A stretch of DNA of 44,573 bases, taken from positions 1 through 44,573 of the forward strand of contig JAHBWH010000057.1 of assembly GCA_019637115.1 (NCBI GenBank), in the 5' to 3' direction. Below, piece after piece: positions 4,356-44,113 of the stretch. The translations under genes and the position numbers were made by a program. The notes under the pieces were generated by a model. The model searched no databases. It was not told the DNA's origin and was given only the letters and a program-made list of their open reading frames with translations. This DNA is from Myxococcales bacterium. GTDB taxonomy: Bacteria > Myxococcota_A > Polyangia > Polyangiales > Houyiibacteriaceae. The first letter of the stretch is position 1; every line of letters begins with the position of its first letter.

Positions 4356-5251
4356 GCGCGCTCGACGCCTTCTGGATGCCGAGCACGCCCGCGCGCCGGC
4401 TCGCGACCCTGCGCGTGCTCGTGGGCGGCTACGGGCTCGTCTACGTGCTCGTGCGCCTACCGCACCTGCTCAGCTACGCGCTCGACGACGTCGCCCGCTT
4501 CGTCCCGGTCGGGCCCGTGACGCTCGCGCCCGCGCCGACCCTGCCCTGGCTCTACCAGCTCCTCGTCGCGCTCGTCGTCGTCACGAGCGCGACGTTCTTC
4601 CTCGGCGTGAGGCATCGATGGCTCGCGCCCGCGCACGCGCTCCTGCTCACCTGGGTGCTCAGCTACACGAACAGCTGGGGCAAGATCCTCCACACCGACA
4701 ACCTCTTCTTGGCGCACGTCGTCGTCCTCGCCTTCGCGCCGGCCGCCGACACGCTCTCCCTCGACGCGCGGGGCCGCGCGGAGCCTCCGGACTCGCCGCG
4801 CTACGGCTGGGCGCCGCGGCTCATGGTCGCGGTCGCGGCGTCGGCCTACCTGCTCGCGGGCGTCGCGAAGCTGCGCGGGAGCGGCGCGCACTTCGTCGGC
4901 GGCGAGACGCTTCGCAACTTCATCGCCTTCGACAACGCGCGCAAGATCGAGCTCGGCGACCTCTACTCGCCGCTCGGCGCGGCGCTCGTGCCCTACCCCT
5001 CGCTCTTCGTGGGGCTCGCATGGTTCAGCCTCGCGCTCGAGCTCGGCGCGCCGCTCGCGCTCCACCCCCGCGTCGGCCGCCCTTGGGCGCTGGGCATGTG
5101 GGGCTTCCACCTCGGCGTGCTGGCGCTGATGGCGATCGGCTTCGTGTACCCGCTGAGCTTCATCGCCTTCGCGCCGCTCTTCGACGTCGAGAAGCTCTGG
5201 ACCCGCCGCCCGCTCCGCGGGCTCGCGAGGCGTCTGGGCGTCGGAGACTGA
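4352..5251 (+). CDS. HTTM-domain (vitamin K-dependent gamma-carboxylase-like) multi-pass membrane protein
   Basis: This 299-residue polytopic protein has several hydrophobic helices (about 17-36, 62-82, 92-104, 119-130, 157-172, 211-232 and 250-275). Landmarks are the N-terminal LATLRVLVGGYGLVYVL, the YTNSWGKILHTDNLFLAH stretch, and AYLLAGVAKLRGSG followed by a conserved Phe/Gly loop. This combination is typical of the HTTM domain named after horizontally transferred transmembrane proteins related to vitamin K-dependent gamma-carboxylase. Bacterial members have no settled activity. The gene overlaps the preceding 147-residue gene by ATGA. It ends at 5251, and no gene is seen between there and 5482. 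Confidence 0.8.
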   Translation: MSALDAFWMPSTPARRLATLRVLVGGYGLVYVLVRLPHLLSYALDDVARFVPVGPVTLAPAPTLPWLYQLLVALVVVTSATFFLGVRHRWLAPAHALLLTWVLSYTNSWGKILHTDNLFLAHVVVLAFAPAADTLSLDARGRAEPPDSPRYGWAPRLMVAVAASAYLLAGVAKLRGSGAHFVGGETLRNFIAFDNARKIELGDLYSPLGAALVPYPSLFVGLAWFSLALELGAPLALHPRVGRPWALGMWGFHLGVLALMAIGFVYPLSFIAFAPLFDVEKLWTRRPLRGLARRLGVGD

Positions 5252-5481
5252 CGCTTCGCGCTCCCAGTGGACGGAGCGGCGGTGGATGGCCTGGTGCCTG
5301 CCGGCCTCGACGGGAGGGAGATGGCGCCACCCCCTCGTCCCCCCGCTTCCGCGTCGTCCCCCTCCCCCCTCGCCGCGCCCCGCCGCTGGCGCTACTCTTC
5401 CTCCCAAGGGATCGGCCGCTCGGGGGTCTCTCCTCCGACCGCGCGCGGGTAGACGCCCGCAGGAGGCAACGTGGAGGGGTC

Positions 5482-6096
5482 ATGCGGGAGCTGATGGTGT
5501 GGGTGGCGCTCTTCCTTCTCCTCGAGGGAGTCCACGCCGTCCCCATCGACGCGGCGTCCGGCGGCGACGCGCGCCTCGTGGGCGACGACCCGAACGCCTA
5601 CGCCTCGACGCTCAACGCCGAGCTCACCTTCGAGAACCCCCGCTCCCCGTCTGGGTGGGGCAGCCTCGACCTCTCGGCCTCGCCGCAGCGCGACGAGGTC
5701 CGCGTGGACGTCGTGCTCGGGACCCCGACGGTGGCGCGACGCTTCACCTGCGGGACCCTCGCGGTGGTCATCGACGGCGCGGGCGAGTCGGTGAGCGCCT
5801 CCGAGGTGGGGACGCCCATGAGCGGCGGCCACTTCGACGCCGTCACCGCGCGGCTGACCATCGACCACGTCCGCCGGATGGTGTCCGCCCGCGACGTCGC
5901 GCTCGAGGTCTGCGGCGAGCGCTTCGACCTCCGCGCGACCGACCGGACACGCCTCGAAGACTTCGTGCGTCGCTTCGACGACCTCGCGACCAACGACGGC
6001 CCCTCCCTCCCCTTCCCGCCCCCCGAGCTCGGCCCCGAGCACGAGTGGCCGATCCACGATCCGGCCTTCTTCGGCGGCCCGCCGACGCCGAGCTGA
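5482..6096 (+). CDS. Secreted protein of unknown function
   Basis: The product is 204 residues. The start is the ATG at 5482, supported by GGAGGGG about 5 nt upstream. An N-terminal hydrophobic segment (about 5-20, VWVALFLLLEGVHA) ending in Val-His-Ala reads as a cleavable signal peptide. The mature part alternates short beta strands (LTFENPRSP, SLDLSASPQ, VRVDVVLGTP) and contains two Cys (in FTCGTLA and LEVCGERF) that could pair once exported. A Pro-rich C-terminus follows. I recognise no family. The frame is open further upstream, but that extension has no signal peptide and no ribosome binding site. Confidence 0.75.
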   Translation: MRELMVWVALFLLLEGVHAVPIDAASGGDARLVGDDPNAYASTLNAELTFENPRSPSGWGSLDLSASPQRDEVRVDVVLGTPTVARRFTCGTLAVVIDGAGESVSASEVGTPMSGGHFDAVTARLTIDHVRRMVSARDVALEVCGERFDLRATDRTRLEDFVRRFDDLATNDGPSLPFPPPELGPEHEWPIHDPAFFGGPPTPS

Positions 6097-6140
6097 CGCG
6101 CCCGGCTCGCCTCCGCGGTCCGCCGACGCCACGTGGAGGG

Positions 6141-6246
6141 GCCGCGACGCTCCCTGCGCCGGGCGACCCGAGCTGGCACGTCTCGCCCGATGCGCCGCGA
6201 CGCTCCCTGCGCCGGGCGACCCGAGCTGGCACGTCTCGCCCGATGC
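6141..6246. repeat. 53-bp perfect tandem duplication
   Basis: Two exact copies of a 53-bp unit lie at 6141-6193 and 6194-6246, in the gap between the secreted-protein gene and the Spy-like gene. The copies show no difference, so the duplication is recent. Nothing coding is recognisable in it. Confidence 0.9.
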
Positions 6247-6357
6247 GCGGGATTTCTGCTCGCCCGTCGCTTTTTCTCTCCCGCTTCAGAGGTCCTTCAG
6301 ACCTGCCGCGTTCCAATGCACGAGGCGACGAGAATCCCGCCTCGAAAGGAACCCGCC

Positions 6358-7074
6358 ATGAAGAACCTCCTCCTCGGCACCGCCCTCTCGCTCGCGACCA
6401 CCTTCCCCGTCCTCGCCCAGCCCCGGAACTACAACCCGGACGCTGGCGTCGCTGCCCAGCCCGCCGAGGGCCGCGGGCAGGGCCGTCGCGGCCACGGTCA
6501 CGGTCACGGCCACCGCAACCCCGAGGCCATGCTCGAGCGCATGACCCAGGACCTGCAGCTCCAGCCGAACCAGGTGCAGCAGCTCCGCCGCATCTTCGAC
6601 GAGTCTCAGCGCGAGCGCGCGAACCTGCGCGGTCAGCGGACCCCCGAAGCGCGTCAGGCGCACCGCGCGCTGATGGAGCGGACGAAGTCGCGGGTGGACG
6701 CGGTCCTCACCCCTGCGCAGCGGACCCGCGCGCAGCAGCTCCGCGAGGCGCGCATGTCGGAGCATATGAACCGACGCCTCGAGCGCATGCAGGAGCAGCT
6801 CTCGCTCCAGCCGGCGCAGGTGCAGCGCATCCGGCAGATCCTCACGCAGGCCCAGGCCGAGCGGAGGAACCTAGGCCACGGCCCCGAGCACCGCGACGCG
6901 CATCGCGCGCTGCACGAGCGCACCAAGACGCAGATCGACGGCGTCCTCGACGCCAACCAGCGCGCCCGCTTCGAGCAGATGCGCGAGCGGCGCGGTGAGC
7001 GCGGCCACCGAGGGCCTCGTGGGCCCAGAGGTGAGCGCGGCGAGCGCGGTGCGCGCGGTCCGCGGACCTTCTGA
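6358..7074 (+). CDS. Periplasmic Spy/CpxP-like LTXXQ protein with tandem repeats
   Basis: The product is 238 residues. The signal peptide MKNLLLGTALSLATTFPVLA precedes a likely cleavage before Gln-Pro. A His-rich patch (HGHGHGH, about 48-55) could bind metal. Two tandem Spy-like helical units follow: the first from about 62 (LQLQPNQVQQLRRIFD) to LTPAQ at 117-121, the second from about 148 (LSLQPAQVQRIRQIL) to LDANQ at 197-201. The last 28 residues are an Arg/Gly-rich tail (RGPRGPRGERGERGARG). Spy/CpxP/CnrX relatives act as periplasmic chaperones or metal sensors. Most have one such unit, so the duplication and RG tail are unusual. ATG 6358 is preceded by AAAGGAAC, a reasonable ribosome binding site. 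Confidence 0.8.
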   Translation: MKNLLLGTALSLATTFPVLAQPRNYNPDAGVAAQPAEGRGQGRRGHGHGHGHRNPEAMLERMTQDLQLQPNQVQQLRRIFDESQRERANLRGQRTPEARQAHRALMERTKSRVDAVLTPAQRTRAQQLREARMSEHMNRRLERMQEQLSLQPAQVQRIRQILTQAQAERRNLGHGPEHRDAHRALHERTKTQIDGVLDANQRARFEQMRERRGERGHRGPRGPRGERGERGARGPRTF

Positions 7075-16977: not shown

Positions 16978-19095
16978 ATGTCCTCGAGGAGCGCGTCCGC
17001 CGCGCCAGATCGTACGCTCGACTACGCCGCGCGCTCCGTCCTCGGGACGCTCGCGCCCAGCTCGCAGGCGGAGGGCGATCTGAAGACCTTCGTCGCCGAG
17101 CGCGCGCTGCGGCATTGCTGGGAGGGCTTGCGCCAATACCTCGCCATCCGGGTGCCCTCGCCTGCGCTCGGGGCGGTCCTCTTGGACCTCGAGTCGTTCG
17201 CCGACCGCGGCCTGCTGAGCGAGCCCCCGAGCGCGCGTGCGCACCTCTTCCGCCGCGCGCACGAGCGGGCTGCCCTCCCCGCCGACGCGCGCCCGACGCC
17301 GCGCTGGTGGCGTCCCCCGAGCGCGCGCCACGCGAAGGACCTCGAGAGGTTGCGAGCCGCGCTGCGCGACGACGACGACGCGGACGCCTTCGAGATCGCC
17401 GAGCTGACCTTCGCGCGGCGGCTCGACGCGGCCGAGGTCGCCTTCGTCATCCGCCGCCCGCCGGCCTCGGTGGAGGAGGTCATCGCGTCGATCCGCGACG
17501 TCGCGCGGCGCATCCTCGGACCATACCCCGCGAGCCGCAGCGGACAGCTCGATGACGCCCTCCTCGAGGCGTTCGCGCTCGAGCCCTCCGCGCGGCGACC
17601 TCGCGCGCGCCCGCTGCTCCCGCTCGGGGCCGTCGTCGCCGAGCGCTACCGGGTCGACACCCACCTCGGCTCCGGCGCGTTCGCCGACGTGTACCGCGCC
17701 GCCGATCTCGAGGTCCCTGGCCACGTGGTCGCCCTGAAGCTCTTCCGCGCCCCTTCGGTCGACGAGGACGCCCGCGAGATCGCGCTCCGGGAGCTCCGCC
17801 TGATCGCGAGCGTCTCCCACCCCTCGGTCGTCCAGTTCAAGGACCACGGGTGGCACGACGACCGCTTTTTCTTCGTGATGCCCTTCCACCGCGGCCAGAC
17901 GCTGCGCGAGCGGCTGGCGACGGGGCCCCTGAACCGCGCCGAGGCGCGGCGCATCTTCGTGCCGCTCGCGCACGCGCTCGCCGCGATGCACGACGCCGGG
18001 GTCCGGCATCAGGATGTCAAACCAGACAACATCCTGCTCGCGCAGCTCCACGCCGGCGACGACGAGTCGCTCCTCCCCGTCCTCCTCGACCTCGGCGTCG
18101 CGGCCAAGGACGCCGAGAGCGTGCTCGCCGGCACGCCGACGCACCTCGCGCCCGAGGTCGCCGCGCGCTTCGCGCGCGAGCCCGATCCGCCGGCGATCAC
18201 GGGGAAGGCCGACGTCTTCTCGTTGGCGCTGACCTTGAAGAACGCGCTCGCCCCCGAGGAAGAGGAGACCGTCCTCGCGGGCGCCGTGGACGCCTTCGTC
18301 GCCGATCGCGCGCGCCGCGCGCCGCGCCCGCCGTCACGCCCGGACCTGCGCTTCCTGCGGGACAGCTTCGAGCGATGGCTGCACCTCGCGCCCGACGAGC
18401 GCCCGACGGCGCACGAGCTGGCGCGCGAGCTCGCCCGCCTCACGGCCCCCGAAGAGCAGCGCGCGCGGCGCCTCGCGGCGATGCGCTGGGGCCTGCCCGT
18501 GCTCGTCATGCTGGCCGTCGTCTTCGGCGCGGTGGTCTTCGTGCTCGGGCGGGAGACCGAGCTTCAGCGGATCGAGGCGACGCAGGCGAGAGAGCTCGCG
18601 ACGCTCGAGCGACTGCGCGCCGAAGAGGCCCGCGACCGCGCGGCGCGCGTCCGCGCCGACCTCGCGGAGGCGCACGAGCGACGCCTCGCGCTCGAGGCGG
18701 ACGTCGAGCGGCTGCAGGCCGAGTACACGACGAGCCGGCTCACCCGCGAGGAGCTCGCGTCGAAGCTCGCGCACGCTGAGCGTGGGCTCGCGCTCGTACG
18801 CGAGGAGGGCGCGATGGAGGTGGCGCGCGTCCAAGGCGAGCTGCGCCGGATGCGGGAGTCGCGGGATCTCACCCTCGGCGAGCTCGACCGCGCGGGCGAG
18901 GTGCTCCGCGCCGAGCAGGGCCGCGCGAACGCGCTGCGCGCGCAGGTCGAGACGCTCAGCGCCGAGCTGGCGGAGGCGCAGACGTCGAGCCGCGCGGCCA
19001 CGCGACGCGTCGGGGAGCTCGAGCAGACGCTGAGCGCGCTCCGGGCGAGCCTCGACGACCTCGACCACCCGCACCCCGCCGACGGCGAGCCCTGA
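16978..19095 (+). CDS. Transmembrane protein kinase with degenerate motifs and C-terminal coiled coil
   Basis: The product is 705 residues. Residues 1-215 are an alpha-rich region with no family I recognise. The kinase domain spans about 222-485: GSGAFADVY glycine loop, Lys254 in VALKLF, HQDVKPDN with catalytic Asp346 (Gln replaces the usual Arg), and LLDLG with metal-binding Asp371 (Leu replaces Phe of DFG). HLAPE follows as the APE motif. The essential Lys and both Asp are kept, so activity is likely. A membrane helix (about 507-524, VLVMLAVVFGAVVFVLG) leads into about 165 residues of coiled coil rich in Ala, Glu, Arg and Leu. The coiled coil would be periplasmic and could dimerise or sense the envelope. 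ATG 16978 is followed at once by plausible coding sequence; the longer upstream frame is Arg-rich and unconvincing. Confidence 0.88.
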   Translation: MSSRSASAAPDRTLDYAARSVLGTLAPSSQAEGDLKTFVAERALRHCWEGLRQYLAIRVPSPALGAVLLDLESFADRGLLSEPPSARAHLFRRAHERAALPADARPTPRWWRPPSARHAKDLERLRAALRDDDDADAFEIAELTFARRLDAAEVAFVIRRPPASVEEVIASIRDVARRILGPYPASRSGQLDDALLEAFALEPSARRPRARPLLPLGAVVAERYRVDTHLGSGAFADVYRAADLEVPGHVVALKLFRAPSVDEDAREIALRELRLIASVSHPSVVQFKDHGWHDDRFFFVMPFHRGQTLRERLATGPLNRAEARRIFVPLAHALAAMHDAGVRHQDVKPDNILLAQLHAGDDESLLPVLLDLGVAAKDAESVLAGTPTHLAPEVAARFAREPDPPAITGKADVFSLALTLKNALAPEEEETVLAGAVDAFVADRARRAPRPPSRPDLRFLRDSFERWLHLAPDERPTAHELARELARLTAPEEQRARRLAAMRWGLPVLVMLAVVFGAVVFVLGRETELQRIEATQARELATLERLRAEEARDRAARVRADLAEAHERRLALEADVERLQAEYTTSRLTREELASKLAHAERGLALVREEGAMEVARVQGELRRMRESRDLTLGELDRAGEVLRAEQGRANALRAQVETLSAELAEAQTSSRAATRRVGELEQTLSALRASLDDLDHPHPADGEP

Positions 19096-23323: not shown

Positions 23324-24910
23324 ATGAAACTCGAGACCGATCACCTCCGCGACCTGCCTGCGCGCACGGATCCGCTCATCGGCAAGGAGCTCGCGGGTCG
23401 CTACCGGATCACCCGTCGCCTCGGAGGTGGCGGCATGGGCGCGGTCTACGAAGCCGAGCACGTCCTGATCGGTCGACGCGTCGCCATCAAGGTCCTACAT
23501 GCCCAGTTCGCGACCGACGCCGAGGTGGTCCGCCGATTCATGAACGAAGCGCGCGCGGCGGGGATGATCCATCACCCGAACATCCTCGAATGTACGGACA
23601 TGGGGCAAGCGGACGACGGCTCACCGTTCCTCGTGCTCGAGCTCCTCGAGGGCCGCGACCTCGGCGACTTGATCCGTGAGTGCGGCGCGCTCCCGCTCGG
23701 TCGCACGGTGAGAATCGCTCGACAAGTGGTGGCCGCGCTCTCAGCCGCGCACGAGCGCGGCATCGTCCATCGTGACCTGAAGCCAGACAACATCTTCCTC
23801 GTAGCCGACGACCGCGTGAAGGTGCTCGACTTCGGCATCTCGAAGTTCGCGTCGTTGCGAACGACGGGTGGCCCCGGAACCGCGACGGGCTCGATCCTGG
23901 GGACCCCGTACTACATGGCGCCCGAACAGCTCCGCGACGCGAGCCGGGTGGACGCCCGCGCCGACATCTACGCGCTCGGCGTCGTACTCTTCGAGGCGCT
24001 GTCGGGACGAGTCCCATTCACGGCGGACACCCTTCCGGAGCTCATCCTGTCGATCGCGATGGCGGACCCCCCACCCATCGCGGCGCTGCGGCCGGACCTC
24101 CCCGAAGCGATTGTGAGCACGATTGAGCGCATGATGGCCAAGCGGCCGGAGGATCGATTCGTCACGATGACTGACGTCGACGCCACGCTCGCGCCCTTCG
24201 AGCACGACACCGCCGACGCACCGCTGGGGTTTCGGGCCACGATGCCGCACCCTTCGATGACGCCCATGGTGACGTCGAGCGCGGCGAGCGCCCCCAGGCG
24301 CTCATGGCCCATGTTCACGATCCCTCTCGCGCTCGGGGCCGGGGCACTGACAATCTGGGCGCTCACCTCCCCCGCACCCTCGCCGGCAGCGTCTGCCGCG
24401 GGCGAACCGTTCCCCGCGCCCGTGGCCGCTCTGGCCCCGTCGCCGCTCGGAGCGGAGCGTTCGAACGGCTCGTCCATCGACGACGACGACGAGCCCGACG
24501 AGCCCGTGGTCGAGCCGACACCGCTCACCGCGGCCACGCTGCGGGACGACCCACGCAGCCACGTCGGCGCCATTGTCGCCTTGGAAGGCCGAACCCGCGA
24601 GTCCTCGGGGGGGTCGCTCCTCTTCGTGATGGACACCGAGTGCGCGCCATGCGTCTTCGGGCTACGAGACGCGACCCCTCGCGCCGAGGCTCTACGCATC
24701 AGCGCGCGCGTCACCGGAGAGACCCGCTCATACGACACGCGTGGAGGCGCTCGCCGCCAGATCCCCGTTCTCGCGGTCGAGCACCAAGAGGAGATCCCCT
24801 CCCCTAGGTGGAGCGTCCCCGACGTCGAGCTCCCCCGGCTGGCCCGTGAGCGGCCACGAAGAGGTCGCTCGACCGCCGAGCCCGCACCGCCTCCCCTGCA
24901 CGAACGGTGA
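23324..24910 (+). CDS. Transmembrane Ser/Thr protein kinase with C-terminal OB-like domain
   Basis: The product is 528 residues. A canonical Hanks-type kinase domain spans about 27-290: GGGGMGAVYEA, Lys56 in VAIKVL, HRDLKPDN with catalytic Asp151, DFG at 169, and GTPYYMAPEQ. It is an RD kinase with all core residues. A Pro/Ser linker leads to one membrane helix (about 330-348). The periplasmic part has an acidic stretch (DDDDEPDEP) and a domain at about 410-500: TAATLRDDPRSHVGAIVALE, ECAPCVFGLRD and ISARVTGETRSY. This reads like the OB-fold domain annotated tRNA_anti-like, though I hold that loosely. The CAPC pair could form a disulfide or bind metal. The kinase probably reports envelope state to the cytoplasm. 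It is convergent with the lipoprotein gene ending at 24978. Confidence 0.92.
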   Translation: MKLETDHLRDLPARTDPLIGKELAGRYRITRRLGGGGMGAVYEAEHVLIGRRVAIKVLHAQFATDAEVVRRFMNEARAAGMIHHPNILECTDMGQADDGSPFLVLELLEGRDLGDLIRECGALPLGRTVRIARQVVAALSAAHERGIVHRDLKPDNIFLVADDRVKVLDFGISKFASLRTTGGPGTATGSILGTPYYMAPEQLRDASRVDARADIYALGVVLFEALSGRVPFTADTLPELILSIAMADPPPIAALRPDLPEAIVSTIERMMAKRPEDRFVTMTDVDATLAPFEHDTADAPLGFRATMPHPSMTPMVTSSAASAPRRSWPMFTIPLALGAGALTIWALTSPAPSPAASAAGEPFPAPVAALAPSPLGAERSNGSSIDDDDEPDEPVVEPTPLTAATLRDDPRSHVGAIVALEGRTRESSGGSLLFVMDTECAPCVFGLRDATPRAEALRISARVTGETRSYDTRGGARRQIPVLAVEHQEEIPSPRWSVPDVELPRLARERPRRGRSTAEPAPPPLHER

Positions 24911-41764: not shown

Positions 41765-42508
41765 TCAATCGTCGCTTGGCGCCCCGACGAGCTCCGCGAC
41801 GCGCTGCACCAGCACGCCCGCGCTCAAGGGCTTCTGCCACCAAGCGTCCGCCTGATGCTGCGTCGCCCCGAGCTGCTCGGCGGTCGCCGCGCTGAGCATC
41901 GCGACCTTCGCCTTCGACTGATGCGGGATCGAGCGCACCCACCGGCAGACCTCGACGCCGCTGCCCCCCGGCATCATCGCGTCGAGCAGGACCACGTCGA
42001 ACGCCCGCTCGCGCAAGAGCGCGAGCGCCTCCTTCGCGCAGCCCGCCTCGCTCACCGCGTGGCCGCCGAGGCGCTCGAGGGCGAGCCGGGCGAGCTTGCG
42101 GACGGACGCCGTGTCGTCGACGAGCAGCACCTCGAGCCGTCGCGCGTCGGTCCGCGCCTCGCGCGGGAGCGGCGCGGCGGGTGGCTCTGCCGGCGGACGC
42201 CGCGCCCGCGCCAAGAGAGACAGGACGGCGCGGCGAAGCTCGTCTCCGACCTCGCGCCCGACCGCGCCGAGCGCGCCGAGCGCCGCCTCTTCGACCGCGG
42301 ACGCTCGCGCTCGCAGCGCCTCGTCCTCGGCGATCCCTCGGATCTGGTGGGCGATCCTGCGGATCACCTCGAGGCTCTCGGCGTCCCCCGCTTGGGCCCT
42401 CTCCCACGCGCCCTCGAGCTCGTCGGCGCGACCCGGCAGCGACGCCACCGCCTCGGCTCGGACCGCCGCGAGCCGCGCCTCGAGGGCGGCGATGGGGTCA
42501 TCATCCAC
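41765..42508 (-). CDS. HPt-receiver two-component protein
   Basis: The product is 247 residues. GTG 42508 is 6 nt downstream of TACGAT. An N-terminal helical domain (about 5-100) contains RRIAHQIRGIAEDEAL with His54 in the position of the phosphorylated His of HPt domains (consensus HxLKGxA). A Pro/Arg linker follows. The receiver domain spans about 125-240: VLLVDDTASVRKL, phospho-acceptor Asp176 in VVLLDAMMPGGSG, and a Lys in WWQKPL. HPt and receiver in one protein suits a phosphorelay intermediate. It is divergent from a kinase-receiver gene 76 bp away, which hints at a shared pathway. No DNA-binding output domain is attached. Confidence 0.85.
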   Translation of the reverse strand: MDDDPIAALEARLAAVRAEAVASLPGRADELEGAWERAQAGDAESLEVIRRIAHQIRGIAEDEALRARASAVEEAALGALGAVGREVGDELRRAVLSLLARARRPPAEPPAAPLPREARTDARRLEVLLVDDTASVRKLARLALERLGGHAVSEAGCAKEALALLRERAFDVVLLDAMMPGGSGVEVCRWVRSIPHQSKAKVAMLSAATAEQLGATQHQADAWWQKPLSAGVLVQRVAELVGAPSDD

Positions 42509-42514
42509 GGGACC

Positions 42515-42520
42515 ATCGTA
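42515..42520 (-). promoter_or_regulatory. Putative -10 box of a leaderless promoter for the HPt-receiver gene
   Basis: TACGAT on the minus strand ends 6 nt before GTG 42508. TACCAT on the plus strand (42519-42524) overlaps it and could serve the divergent kinase gene with a leader of about 55 nt. Confidence 0.5.
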
Positions 42521-42584
42521 CCATCGCTGGTGCCCACATCGCGACGAGCGGCCGACGAACCGTTCTTTCCCCCTCCCGCCACCG

Positions 42585-43907
42585 ATGGCACCATGGGCGC
42601 GGATGGTTGCGAATCCGAACGGGAAGACCGATCCCCGCGACGTGGCTGACGACGAGCTCATCGAGGACTCGGATGCCCCGCCTGCGGGGACCGTCATCGA
42701 CGGATATCGCGTCGAGCGGCTCATCGGGCGCGGCGGCATGGGCGTCGTGGTCCTCGCACGCGACGAACGCCTCGCGAGGGACGTCGCCATCAAGCTCGTC
42801 GCGCCCGAGCGAGTGTCGAGCGCGAGCGCCCGCGCGTCCTTCCTCCACGAGGCCCGCGCGATGGCGGGCGTCCGCCACGAGAACGTCGCGCAGATCTACA
42901 CCTACGGCGAGTACGAGGGCCTCCCCTACTTCGTAATGGAGTACGTGCCGGGCAAGGACCTCGGGACCTGGCTCGACGAGCACTTCGCGCGTCACGAGCT
43001 CCCCTCCGTCGACGAGACGCTCGGCATCCTCGACCAAGTCTGCCGAGGCCTCGGCGCGATCCACGCCCGAGGCATCGTCCACGCGGACGTGAAGCCCGGC
43101 AACGTGCTCATCGGCCCGGCGTTCCGCGCAGCCGTCACCGACTTCGGGCTCGTCCGCGCGCTCGGCGAGCGCGACGCGAGCGAGCTCGTCGTCGGCACGC
43201 CCGCCTACATCGCGCCCGAGATCGTCTACTCGCGCACGCCCGTCTTCGACCGTCGGGCCGACGTCTTCGCGCTCGGCGTGATCGCCTACGAGATGCTCAC
43301 GGGCAAGCTCCCGTTCCGCATCCACGACGTCAACTCGCTCTTCGACGTGCATCTCCGGCGCGACCCCGCGACGCCGCCGAGCGAGCACCGCCCGGACCTC
43401 CCGACCGCGTTCGACGACGTCGTGATGACAGCCCTCGAGCGCGACGTGGACCGCCGGTTCCCGACGACGGACGCGCTGCGCAAGGCGCTCTTCCGTGCGC
43501 GGAGCGACGCCGGGCGCAGCCCCGGCCCTACGCGCATCCTGATCGCCGACGACGACCCGCACGCCCGCGCGATGGTGCGCGAGACCCTCGCCTTCGCCTT
43601 CCCCGACGCGACCTTGGTGGAGGCGGCGGACGGCGCCCAGGCGCTCGCCGAGCTCGAGGCGATCCCCGCCGATCTCGTCGTCATGGACCTCGACATGCCA
43701 GGGATGAACGGCCTCGAGCTGACGGCGGCCATCCGCGGGGCCCCTCACCTCGCGAACGTCCCGATCCTGGTCGTCACCGGCCGCGGGGGCAGCGGCGATT
43801 GGCGGCTCCTGCAGAGCCTCGGGGCGGACGGGTTCCTCCTCAAGCCGGTCGATGCCTACACGCTGGTCGCGCTCGCCCGGCGGGGGCTCGAGAGCAAACA
43901 CCGCTGA
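42585..43907 (+). CDS. Ser/Thr protein kinase fused to a C-terminal receiver domain
   Basis: The product is 440 residues from ATG 42585 (ATG 42603 is equally possible). The kinase domain spans about 40-300: GRGGMGVVVLARD, Lys70 in VAIKLV, HADVKPGN with catalytic Asp168 (Ala replaces Arg, so non-RD), DFG at 186 and GTPAYIAPE. After a short basic linker a receiver domain fills about 313-435: ILIADDDPHARAMV, phospho-acceptor Asp368 in VVMDLDMPGMNG, VVTGRGG and a Lys in LLKPVD. There is no membrane helix, so the protein is cytoplasmic. The arrangement lets a His-Asp relay control Ser/Thr kinase activity, or the reverse. Confidence 0.92.
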   Translation: MAPWARMVANPNGKTDPRDVADDELIEDSDAPPAGTVIDGYRVERLIGRGGMGVVVLARDERLARDVAIKLVAPERVSSASARASFLHEARAMAGVRHENVAQIYTYGEYEGLPYFVMEYVPGKDLGTWLDEHFARHELPSVDETLGILDQVCRGLGAIHARGIVHADVKPGNVLIGPAFRAAVTDFGLVRALGERDASELVVGTPAYIAPEIVYSRTPVFDRRADVFALGVIAYEMLTGKLPFRIHDVNSLFDVHLRRDPATPPSEHRPDLPTAFDDVVMTALERDVDRRFPTTDALRKALFRARSDAGRSPGPTRILIADDDPHARAMVRETLAFAFPDATLVEAADGAQALAELEAIPADLVVMDLDMPGMNGLELTAAIRGAPHLANVPILVVTGRGGSGDWRLLQSLGADGFLLKPVDAYTLVALARRGLESKHR

Positions 43908-43910
43908 GCG

Positions 43911-43976
43911 GCTAGCCGGCTCGAATTTCCAGGCGGGTGTACCAGTACACCCGCCCGGAAATTCGAGCCGGGTAGC
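43911..43976. repeat. 66-bp palindrome made of two inverted copies of a 32-bp element
   Basis: Left arm 43911-43942 and right arm 43945-43976 match at 30 of 32 positions as reverse complements around a CA centre. It begins 4 nt after the kinase stop. It can extrude as a long hairpin and may act as a terminator. The arm matches the direct copy at 44076-44107. Confidence 0.9.
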
Positions 43977-44075
43977 CGCGGCCCTCGACGCGGATCTCGC
44001 TCGCCGACCTCCTCGAATAGGCTTCGGCCTGTCCTTCGTCGGCGCGGCAAACGACCTCCACGCCGATCATCCACG

Positions 44076-44113
44076 GCTACCCGGCTCGAATTTCCAGGCG
44101 GGTGTACTAGGCT
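44076..44113 (+). promoter_or_regulatory. Third copy of the 32-bp element, placed as promoter of the last gene
   Basis: The copy 44076-44107 contains TCGAAT (44086-44091), and 16 nt later TAGGCT (44108-44113) follows, 9 nt before ATG 44123. These are reasonable -35 and -10 boxes. The related sequence at 2978-3020 lies before the rhomboid gene. Confidence 0.55.

Follow-up and report, generated by a model that had tools for sequence, protein, structure and literature searches.

A Divergently Encoded HPt-Receiver and Ser/Thr Kinase-Receiver Pair Conserved in Polyangiales: A Candidate Phosphorelay with a Ser/Thr Kinase Output

Introduction

His-Asp and Ser/Thr signalling in bacteria are usually treated as parallel systems. 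Myxobacteria are rich in both, and the connection between the two is poorly known. Two divergent genes on a contig of a Myxococcales bacterium (JAHBWH010000057.1; the whole stretch of 44,573 nucleotides that was analysed is called here the window) raise the question of whether a phosphoryl group could pass from a histidine kinase to a receiver that controls a Ser/Thr kinase. One of them encodes an HPt domain joined to a receiver (HPt-REC), the other a Ser/Thr kinase joined to a receiver (STK-REC). The pair thus physically contains the joint between both kinds of signalling, i.e., an HPt, a receiver, and a receiver-fused kinase, and together with the sensor loci found in its relatives it makes the connection directly testable.

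The Two Genes and Their Products

The HPt-REC gene lies on the minus strand at positions 41765..42508 and its translation from a GTG start codon gives a protein of 247 aa, while that of the STK-REC gene (42585..43907, plus strand, ATG start codon) gives one of 440 aa. The 76 bp that separate the divergent start codons (42509..42584) are the presumed site of both promoters; a promoter region common to both genes is plausible, and the promoter scan found no match to a sigma-70-like promoter within the gap. The coordinates, start codons, and 76-bp gap given in a preliminary description of the window were correct, and His54, Asp176, and Asp368, named there as phosphorylation sites, occupy these positions within the expected motifs.

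In HPt-REC, the HPt domain (about residues 5–102, with the phospho-acceptor His54, Arg57, and Gly58) is separated by a disordered linker (residues 104–121) from the receiver (127–237). The N-terminal part of the window protein has no match in Pfam or among PDB sequences, and a Foldseek search with its AlphaFold2 model returned receivers only among the 50 matches listed. Over the same N-terminal region, six orthologues (L021, L024, L025, L026, L027, and L029) pass the cut-off of Pfam Hpt (PF01627), scoring 27.9–37.0 bits against a cut-off of 24.6. The model (mean pLDDT 80) has five N-terminal helices, at residues 5–22, 24–39, 43–59, 63–77, and 83–102, with His54 located in the third, and the HPt signature is retained in the alignment of 14 HPt-RECs: His54 and Gly58 in 14/14, and Arg or Lys at position 57 in 13/14. 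Taken together, the scores of the orthologues, the five-helix model with His54, and the conserved His/basic/Gly signature identify the domain, as judged from sequence and model, as HPt; the earlier wording, "HPt-like", correctly pointed to an HPt but was too weak. The receiver of HPt-REC (Response_reg, E 3e-18) possesses all the residues expected from PF00072: the acidic pair Asp131/Asp132, the phospho-site Asp176, Ser206 at the Thr/Ser position, and Lys226. The acidic pair, Asp176, and Lys226 are, like His54 and Gly58, invariant in 14/14 proteins, and the aromatic position K-3 is occupied by an invariant Trp223. A FATGUY-type motif was not found in this receiver.

STK-REC consists of a Hanks-type kinase domain (residues 41–301, Pkinase, E 2e-47) and a C-terminal receiver (318–430, Response_reg, E 8e-22); the kinase part of its AlphaFold2 model (mean pLDDT 79) is closest to PknA/PknB. 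Besides Lys170, the kinase domain of the window protein carries the residues defining the Hanks type, namely Lys70 of VAIK, Glu89 of helix alpha-C, His166 and Asp168 of HxD (here His166-Ala-Asp168), Asn173, and Asp186 of DFG, which were found in all 17 STK-RECs aligned. Lys70, Glu89, Asp168, Asn173, and Asp186 are invariant in 17/17, together with Asp368 and Lys420 of the receiver. In the window protein this receiver contains the full PF00072 set, i.e., the acidic pair (Asp323/324), the phospho-Asp (Asp368), the Thr/Ser residue (Thr398), and the Lys (Lys420). Thr398 is present in 16/17 sequences (Ser in one) and Phe417 also in 16/17 (Leu in one); a Thr/aromatic pair of this kind has been described as the allosteric switch of output receivers (PMC9981736). 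The HxD motif reads HGD in seven of the 17 proteins, HAD in six, and HRD in four. The non-RD HAD motif noted previously is indeed found at residues 166–168; on the evidence of the alignment it is a feature of the window kinase and not of the system, and since HAD, HGD, and HRD vary within the family nothing should be built on it.

Some other features of the window may also be mentioned. Just after the stop codon of the STK-REC gene, at 43905–43985, there is a near-perfect long palindrome (RNA fold of -67.4 kcal/mol, z -10.9) made up of a 25-bp unit, CGGCTCGAATTTCCAGGCGGGTGTA, which recurs as a third copy at 44082–44106. With up to two mismatches this unit occurs eight times in the genome, and the reversed control not at all; it resembles a dispersed REP-like or terminator element. 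Two more Ser/Thr kinase-like stretches are present on the plus strand at 17635–18252 and 23402–24166.

Conservation of the Pair

Many genera of the order have kinase orthologues, at 45–73% identity. When 290 genomes from across the class were scanned with the HPt-REC alignment, 23 proved to carry a full-scoring HPt-REC (at least 157 bits; below a gap in the scores, the next matches reach at most 116 bits and cover mainly the receiver), all of them in three families, among which, by the identities of the contigs, are Polyangiaceae (the window's own family) and Sandaracinaceae. STK-REC is the divergent neighbour of HPt-REC in 22/22 genomes with enough flanking sequence, the window's included; the 23rd is outside this count as its match begins at a contig end. 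Loss of the linkage in relatives had been set beforehand as a result that would refute the phosphorelay idea, and all the testable genomes keep the two genes together. The divergent pairing is well beyond chance.

The outer neighbours vary: RuvC and a YebC-like gene in one family, EF-G in another genome, and GlmU with others in the window. As the remaining neighbours differ between families, the linkage of the pair is not just a matter of general synteny. In several genomes an amidase gene (fam2) is located near the pair and was judged to have no part in signalling. In a tree of 50 STK-RECs all 24 pair members fall into one clade (SH-aLRT 97), whose subclades follow the families, fitting vertical inheritance; judging by these sequences, the simplest history would be one ancient pairing inherited vertically. 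The distances between HPt-RECs correlate with those between STK-RECs (r 0.64, calculated without a species-tree control), as is expected of any two vertically inherited genes. The relatives include metagenome-assembled genomes (MAGs), contigs stop near some of the pairs, and the gene calls are based on reading frame and homology only.

HPt Genes near Other STK-RECs

In the preliminary description such wiring had been called rarely described. It does seem hardly described, but STK-REC fusions themselves are common in the order: 19 genomes contain 58 of them, along with 112 Pfam Hpt matches. In these genomes an HPt lies within 2 kb of 8/49 STK-RECs outside the pair clade and of 0/90 receiver-less kinases obtained in the same search (Fisher P 1.6e-4, a value that overstates independence because the members are related), and random placement would give 0.24 STK-RECs with an HPt at this distance, versus the 8 observed. 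Seen from the other side, 7/20 HPt genes in short frames (<400 aa) are located within 2 kb of an STK-REC (L193, L194, L195, L197, L185, L191, and L196), a clustering not seen in the literature searched. The HPt gene is convergent to the STK-REC gene in L185 and L196, downstream of it on the same strand in L191 and L195, and upstream of it in L194, and in L193 REC and HPt are encoded by separate genes, from which the STK-REC gene diverges. HPt domains are thus generally associated with STK-REC genes in the order, and both the orientation and the partner vary from case to case.

The possibility that L191 encodes a single STK-REC-HPt polypeptide was ruled out, as the frame stops after the REC and the HPt is a separate downstream gene. 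L185, L189, L190, L191, and L192 form an STK-REC branch with two tandem kinase-like domains before the receiver, the first of which, inspected by eye, is without several catalytic motifs and may be a pseudokinase. Kinase-receiver matches spanning the receiver are also found outside the phylum, in MAGs of Gemmata (L090), Pedosphaera (L105), and Acidobacteria (L155).

Histidine Kinases in Related Loci and in the Host Genome

Several STK-REC loci of relatives are fuller in that they include histidine kinases. L198 encodes on one strand an HPt-REC-REC-GGDEF protein, then STK-REC, then a GAF-PAS-HisKA-HATPase protein. Pfam marks one receiver in the first of these (4895–6688, plus strand), its first receiver being weaker and recognized by eye; one HPt may there work for a diguanylate cyclase as well as for a Ser/Thr kinase. 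L197 has, in this order, an NtrC-type regulator, HPt, a histidine kinase, STK-REC, REC, and a GAF-PAS histidine kinase. L195 has two STK-RECs flanking an HPt and a GAF-PAS hybrid kinase, and the divergent neighbour of STK-REC in L170 is a sensor with four domains, HisKA-HATPase-REC-HPt. In L081, from a Sorangium MAG, a REC-HisKA-HATPase gene begins about 45 bp after STK-REC; no HPt was found on this contig. The STK-REC of G003, with a divergent HisKA-HATPase-REC-HPt sensor, was considered as an orthologue in which this sensor has replaced HPt-REC; since the tree places it in a sister paralogue clade, that reading was rejected and the locus serves as an analogy only. Because the fuller loci sit elsewhere in the STK-REC tree or are absent from it, they support a relay into the window pair by analogy.

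No histidine kinase was found on the window contig, in agreement with the preliminary description, and a scan of 17 neighbourhoods that hold the pair gave none with a clear linkage and one weak partial match (L168), which weighs against the relay reading. Elsewhere in the host genome there are about 82 HATPase_c matches, whereas HPt domains are few: of its five Pfam Hpt matches three are in long frames of 825–969 aa that also hold a HATPase match. Given the lack of a clearly linked histidine kinase and the many HATPase_c matches elsewhere, the pair may receive its phosphoryl groups from one or several unlinked kinases.

Proposed Phosphoryl Flow and Its Alternatives

The donor to an HPt domain is the Asp of a receiver; a histidine kinase does not charge it directly. 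The relay suggested in the preliminary description, leading from a His-Asp system to the kinase-fused receiver, is at its core well supported by the strict conservation of the pair, the invariant phospho-sites, and the histidine kinases in the relatives' loci; its first step, directly from a histidine kinase to HPt, has to be replaced. As the HPt takes its phosphoryl group from an Asp, the likelier path would run from a histidine kinase to Asp176 or to the receiver of a hybrid kinase, and from there via His54 to Asp368. A histidine kinase encoded elsewhere would phosphorylate Asp176 of HPt-REC, or, as an alternative entry, a hybrid kinase would phosphorylate its own receiver; either receiver would then charge His54, which would pass the phosphoryl group to Asp368 of the STK-REC receiver. 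The phosphorylated receiver would alter the activity of the attached kinase, and in this way a transient His-Asp signal would be converted into Ser/Thr phosphorylation of target proteins. The parts of a His-Asp-His-Asp chain downstream of the sensor are present, i.e., a candidate intermediate receiver, an HPt, and an output receiver, and the pair is probably the downstream half of a multistep phosphorelay with a Ser/Thr kinase as its output. That the phosphoryl group flows this way, that it is transferred between these sites, and that the receiver gates the kinase are inferences.

Gene linkage gives no direction, and HPt-REC could drain Asp368 rather than feed it. It would then act as a phosphatase-like buffer: Asp368 would be charged by a histidine kinase directly or by acetyl phosphate, and the HPt would pull the phosphoryl group back to Asp176 for hydrolysis, keeping the Ser/Thr kinase off. 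The same parts and the same linkage would serve this role, the receiver on the HPt protein being an obvious sink; ArcB offers a known case of such reverse flow (reviewed in PMC12471899), and the REC-histidine kinase of L081 adjoins STK-REC on a contig in which no HPt was found. Against it, L197 and L198, where histidine kinases without a receiver of their own accompany an HPt, look like forward relays with the HPt as the only route through a separate receiver. A draining role is regarded as unlikely.

Still less probable is that the kinase acts on the relay, with STK-REC phosphorylating HPt-REC on Ser/Thr and so modulating another two-component pathway, its own receiver being a docking or localisation module. 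Phosphorylation of response regulators by Ser/Thr kinases is established (reviewed in PMC12471899) and the kinase domain retains all its catalytic residues; however, the STK-REC receiver keeps the switch pair and every residue that phosphorylation of its Asp requires, needless for mere docking, and the HPt associates with STK-RECs and not with receiver-less kinases. That the two genes are merely co-expressed from a common promoter region and belong to separate pathways, as the 76-bp gap and the frequent co-regulation of divergent neighbours might suggest, is very improbable, since the linkage persists over three families though the surroundings change, and a common promoter does not explain why the HPt/STK-REC association recurs in convergent and same-strand arrangements and in other gene families.

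On the phosphorelay reading, eukaryote-like kinases are probably switched by phosphorelays in the bacteria of this order. A broader and distinctly more tentative proposal is that Polyangiales hold a widespread class of phosphorelays ending in a receiver-gated Ser/Thr kinase, to which stand-alone HPts are often devoted; the window pair would be its most conserved, sensor-free form and could be a shared hub joining several orphan histidine kinases to one Ser/Thr kinase output.

Comparison with Known Systems

Spo0F/Spo0B, ArcB/ArcA, and CckA-ChpT-CtrA are His-Asp-His-Asp phosphorelays. The proposed relay shares with them the alternating His and Asp sites and the intermediate receiver and HPt preceding the output receiver; it differs in that their output is a DNA-binding regulator and here a Ser/Thr kinase, and in that the receiver and HPt are fused here without a histidine kinase, the cognate one being unlinked. 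Censuses of response regulators include some with kinase output domains, and fungi have phosphorelays that end in Ser/Thr kinases. Like the relay proposed here, the yeast HOG system, Sln1-Ypd1-Ssk1-Ssk2, leads to the control of a Ser/Thr kinase, but Ssk1, the output receiver there, binds the kinase as a protein of its own, whereas in STK-REC the receiver is fused to it. With PknA/PknB, STK-REC shares the kinase fold and catalytic residues; Pfam found no PASTA match in it, and a receiver is present instead.

Proteins combining a receiver and an HPt on one non-kinase polypeptide, as HPt-REC does, have been catalogued, with 312 "RRHPt" in one survey (PMC4558063); the difference is that HPt-REC is paired with a Ser/Thr kinase. 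Any protein annotated as a serine/threonine kinase was left out of that survey, which put STK-REC partners beyond its reach. Similarly, a myxobacterial study defined two-component loci as unidirectionally encoded (PMC4603909), a definition under which a divergent pair would not form one locus. Given these criteria, surveys could overlook such pairs (PMC4558063, PMC4603909), and in the open literature, which was covered in part, no description was found of an HPt paired with STK-REC in bacteria.

The same domain order, a Ser/Thr kinase followed by a C-terminal receiver, is found in fungal Rim15 (PMC8510515). The Rim15 proteins of Basidiomycota and Mucoromycota retain the phospho-Asp, those of Ascomycota have lost it, and the role of the receiver was stated as not yet studied (PMC8510515). 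Rim15 is a eukaryotic kinase of the Greatwall family, whereas the kinase domain of STK-REC is closest to bacterial PknA/PknB; moreover, the non-Ascomycota receivers of Rim15 are non-aromatic at K-3 (PMC8510515), and for Rim15 no pairing with an HPt gene is described. The likeness of STK-REC to Rim15 is one of architecture, not of membership. All the parts of the proposed system are known from elsewhere, and its wiring seems to be a little-described variant of the phosphorelays compared above.
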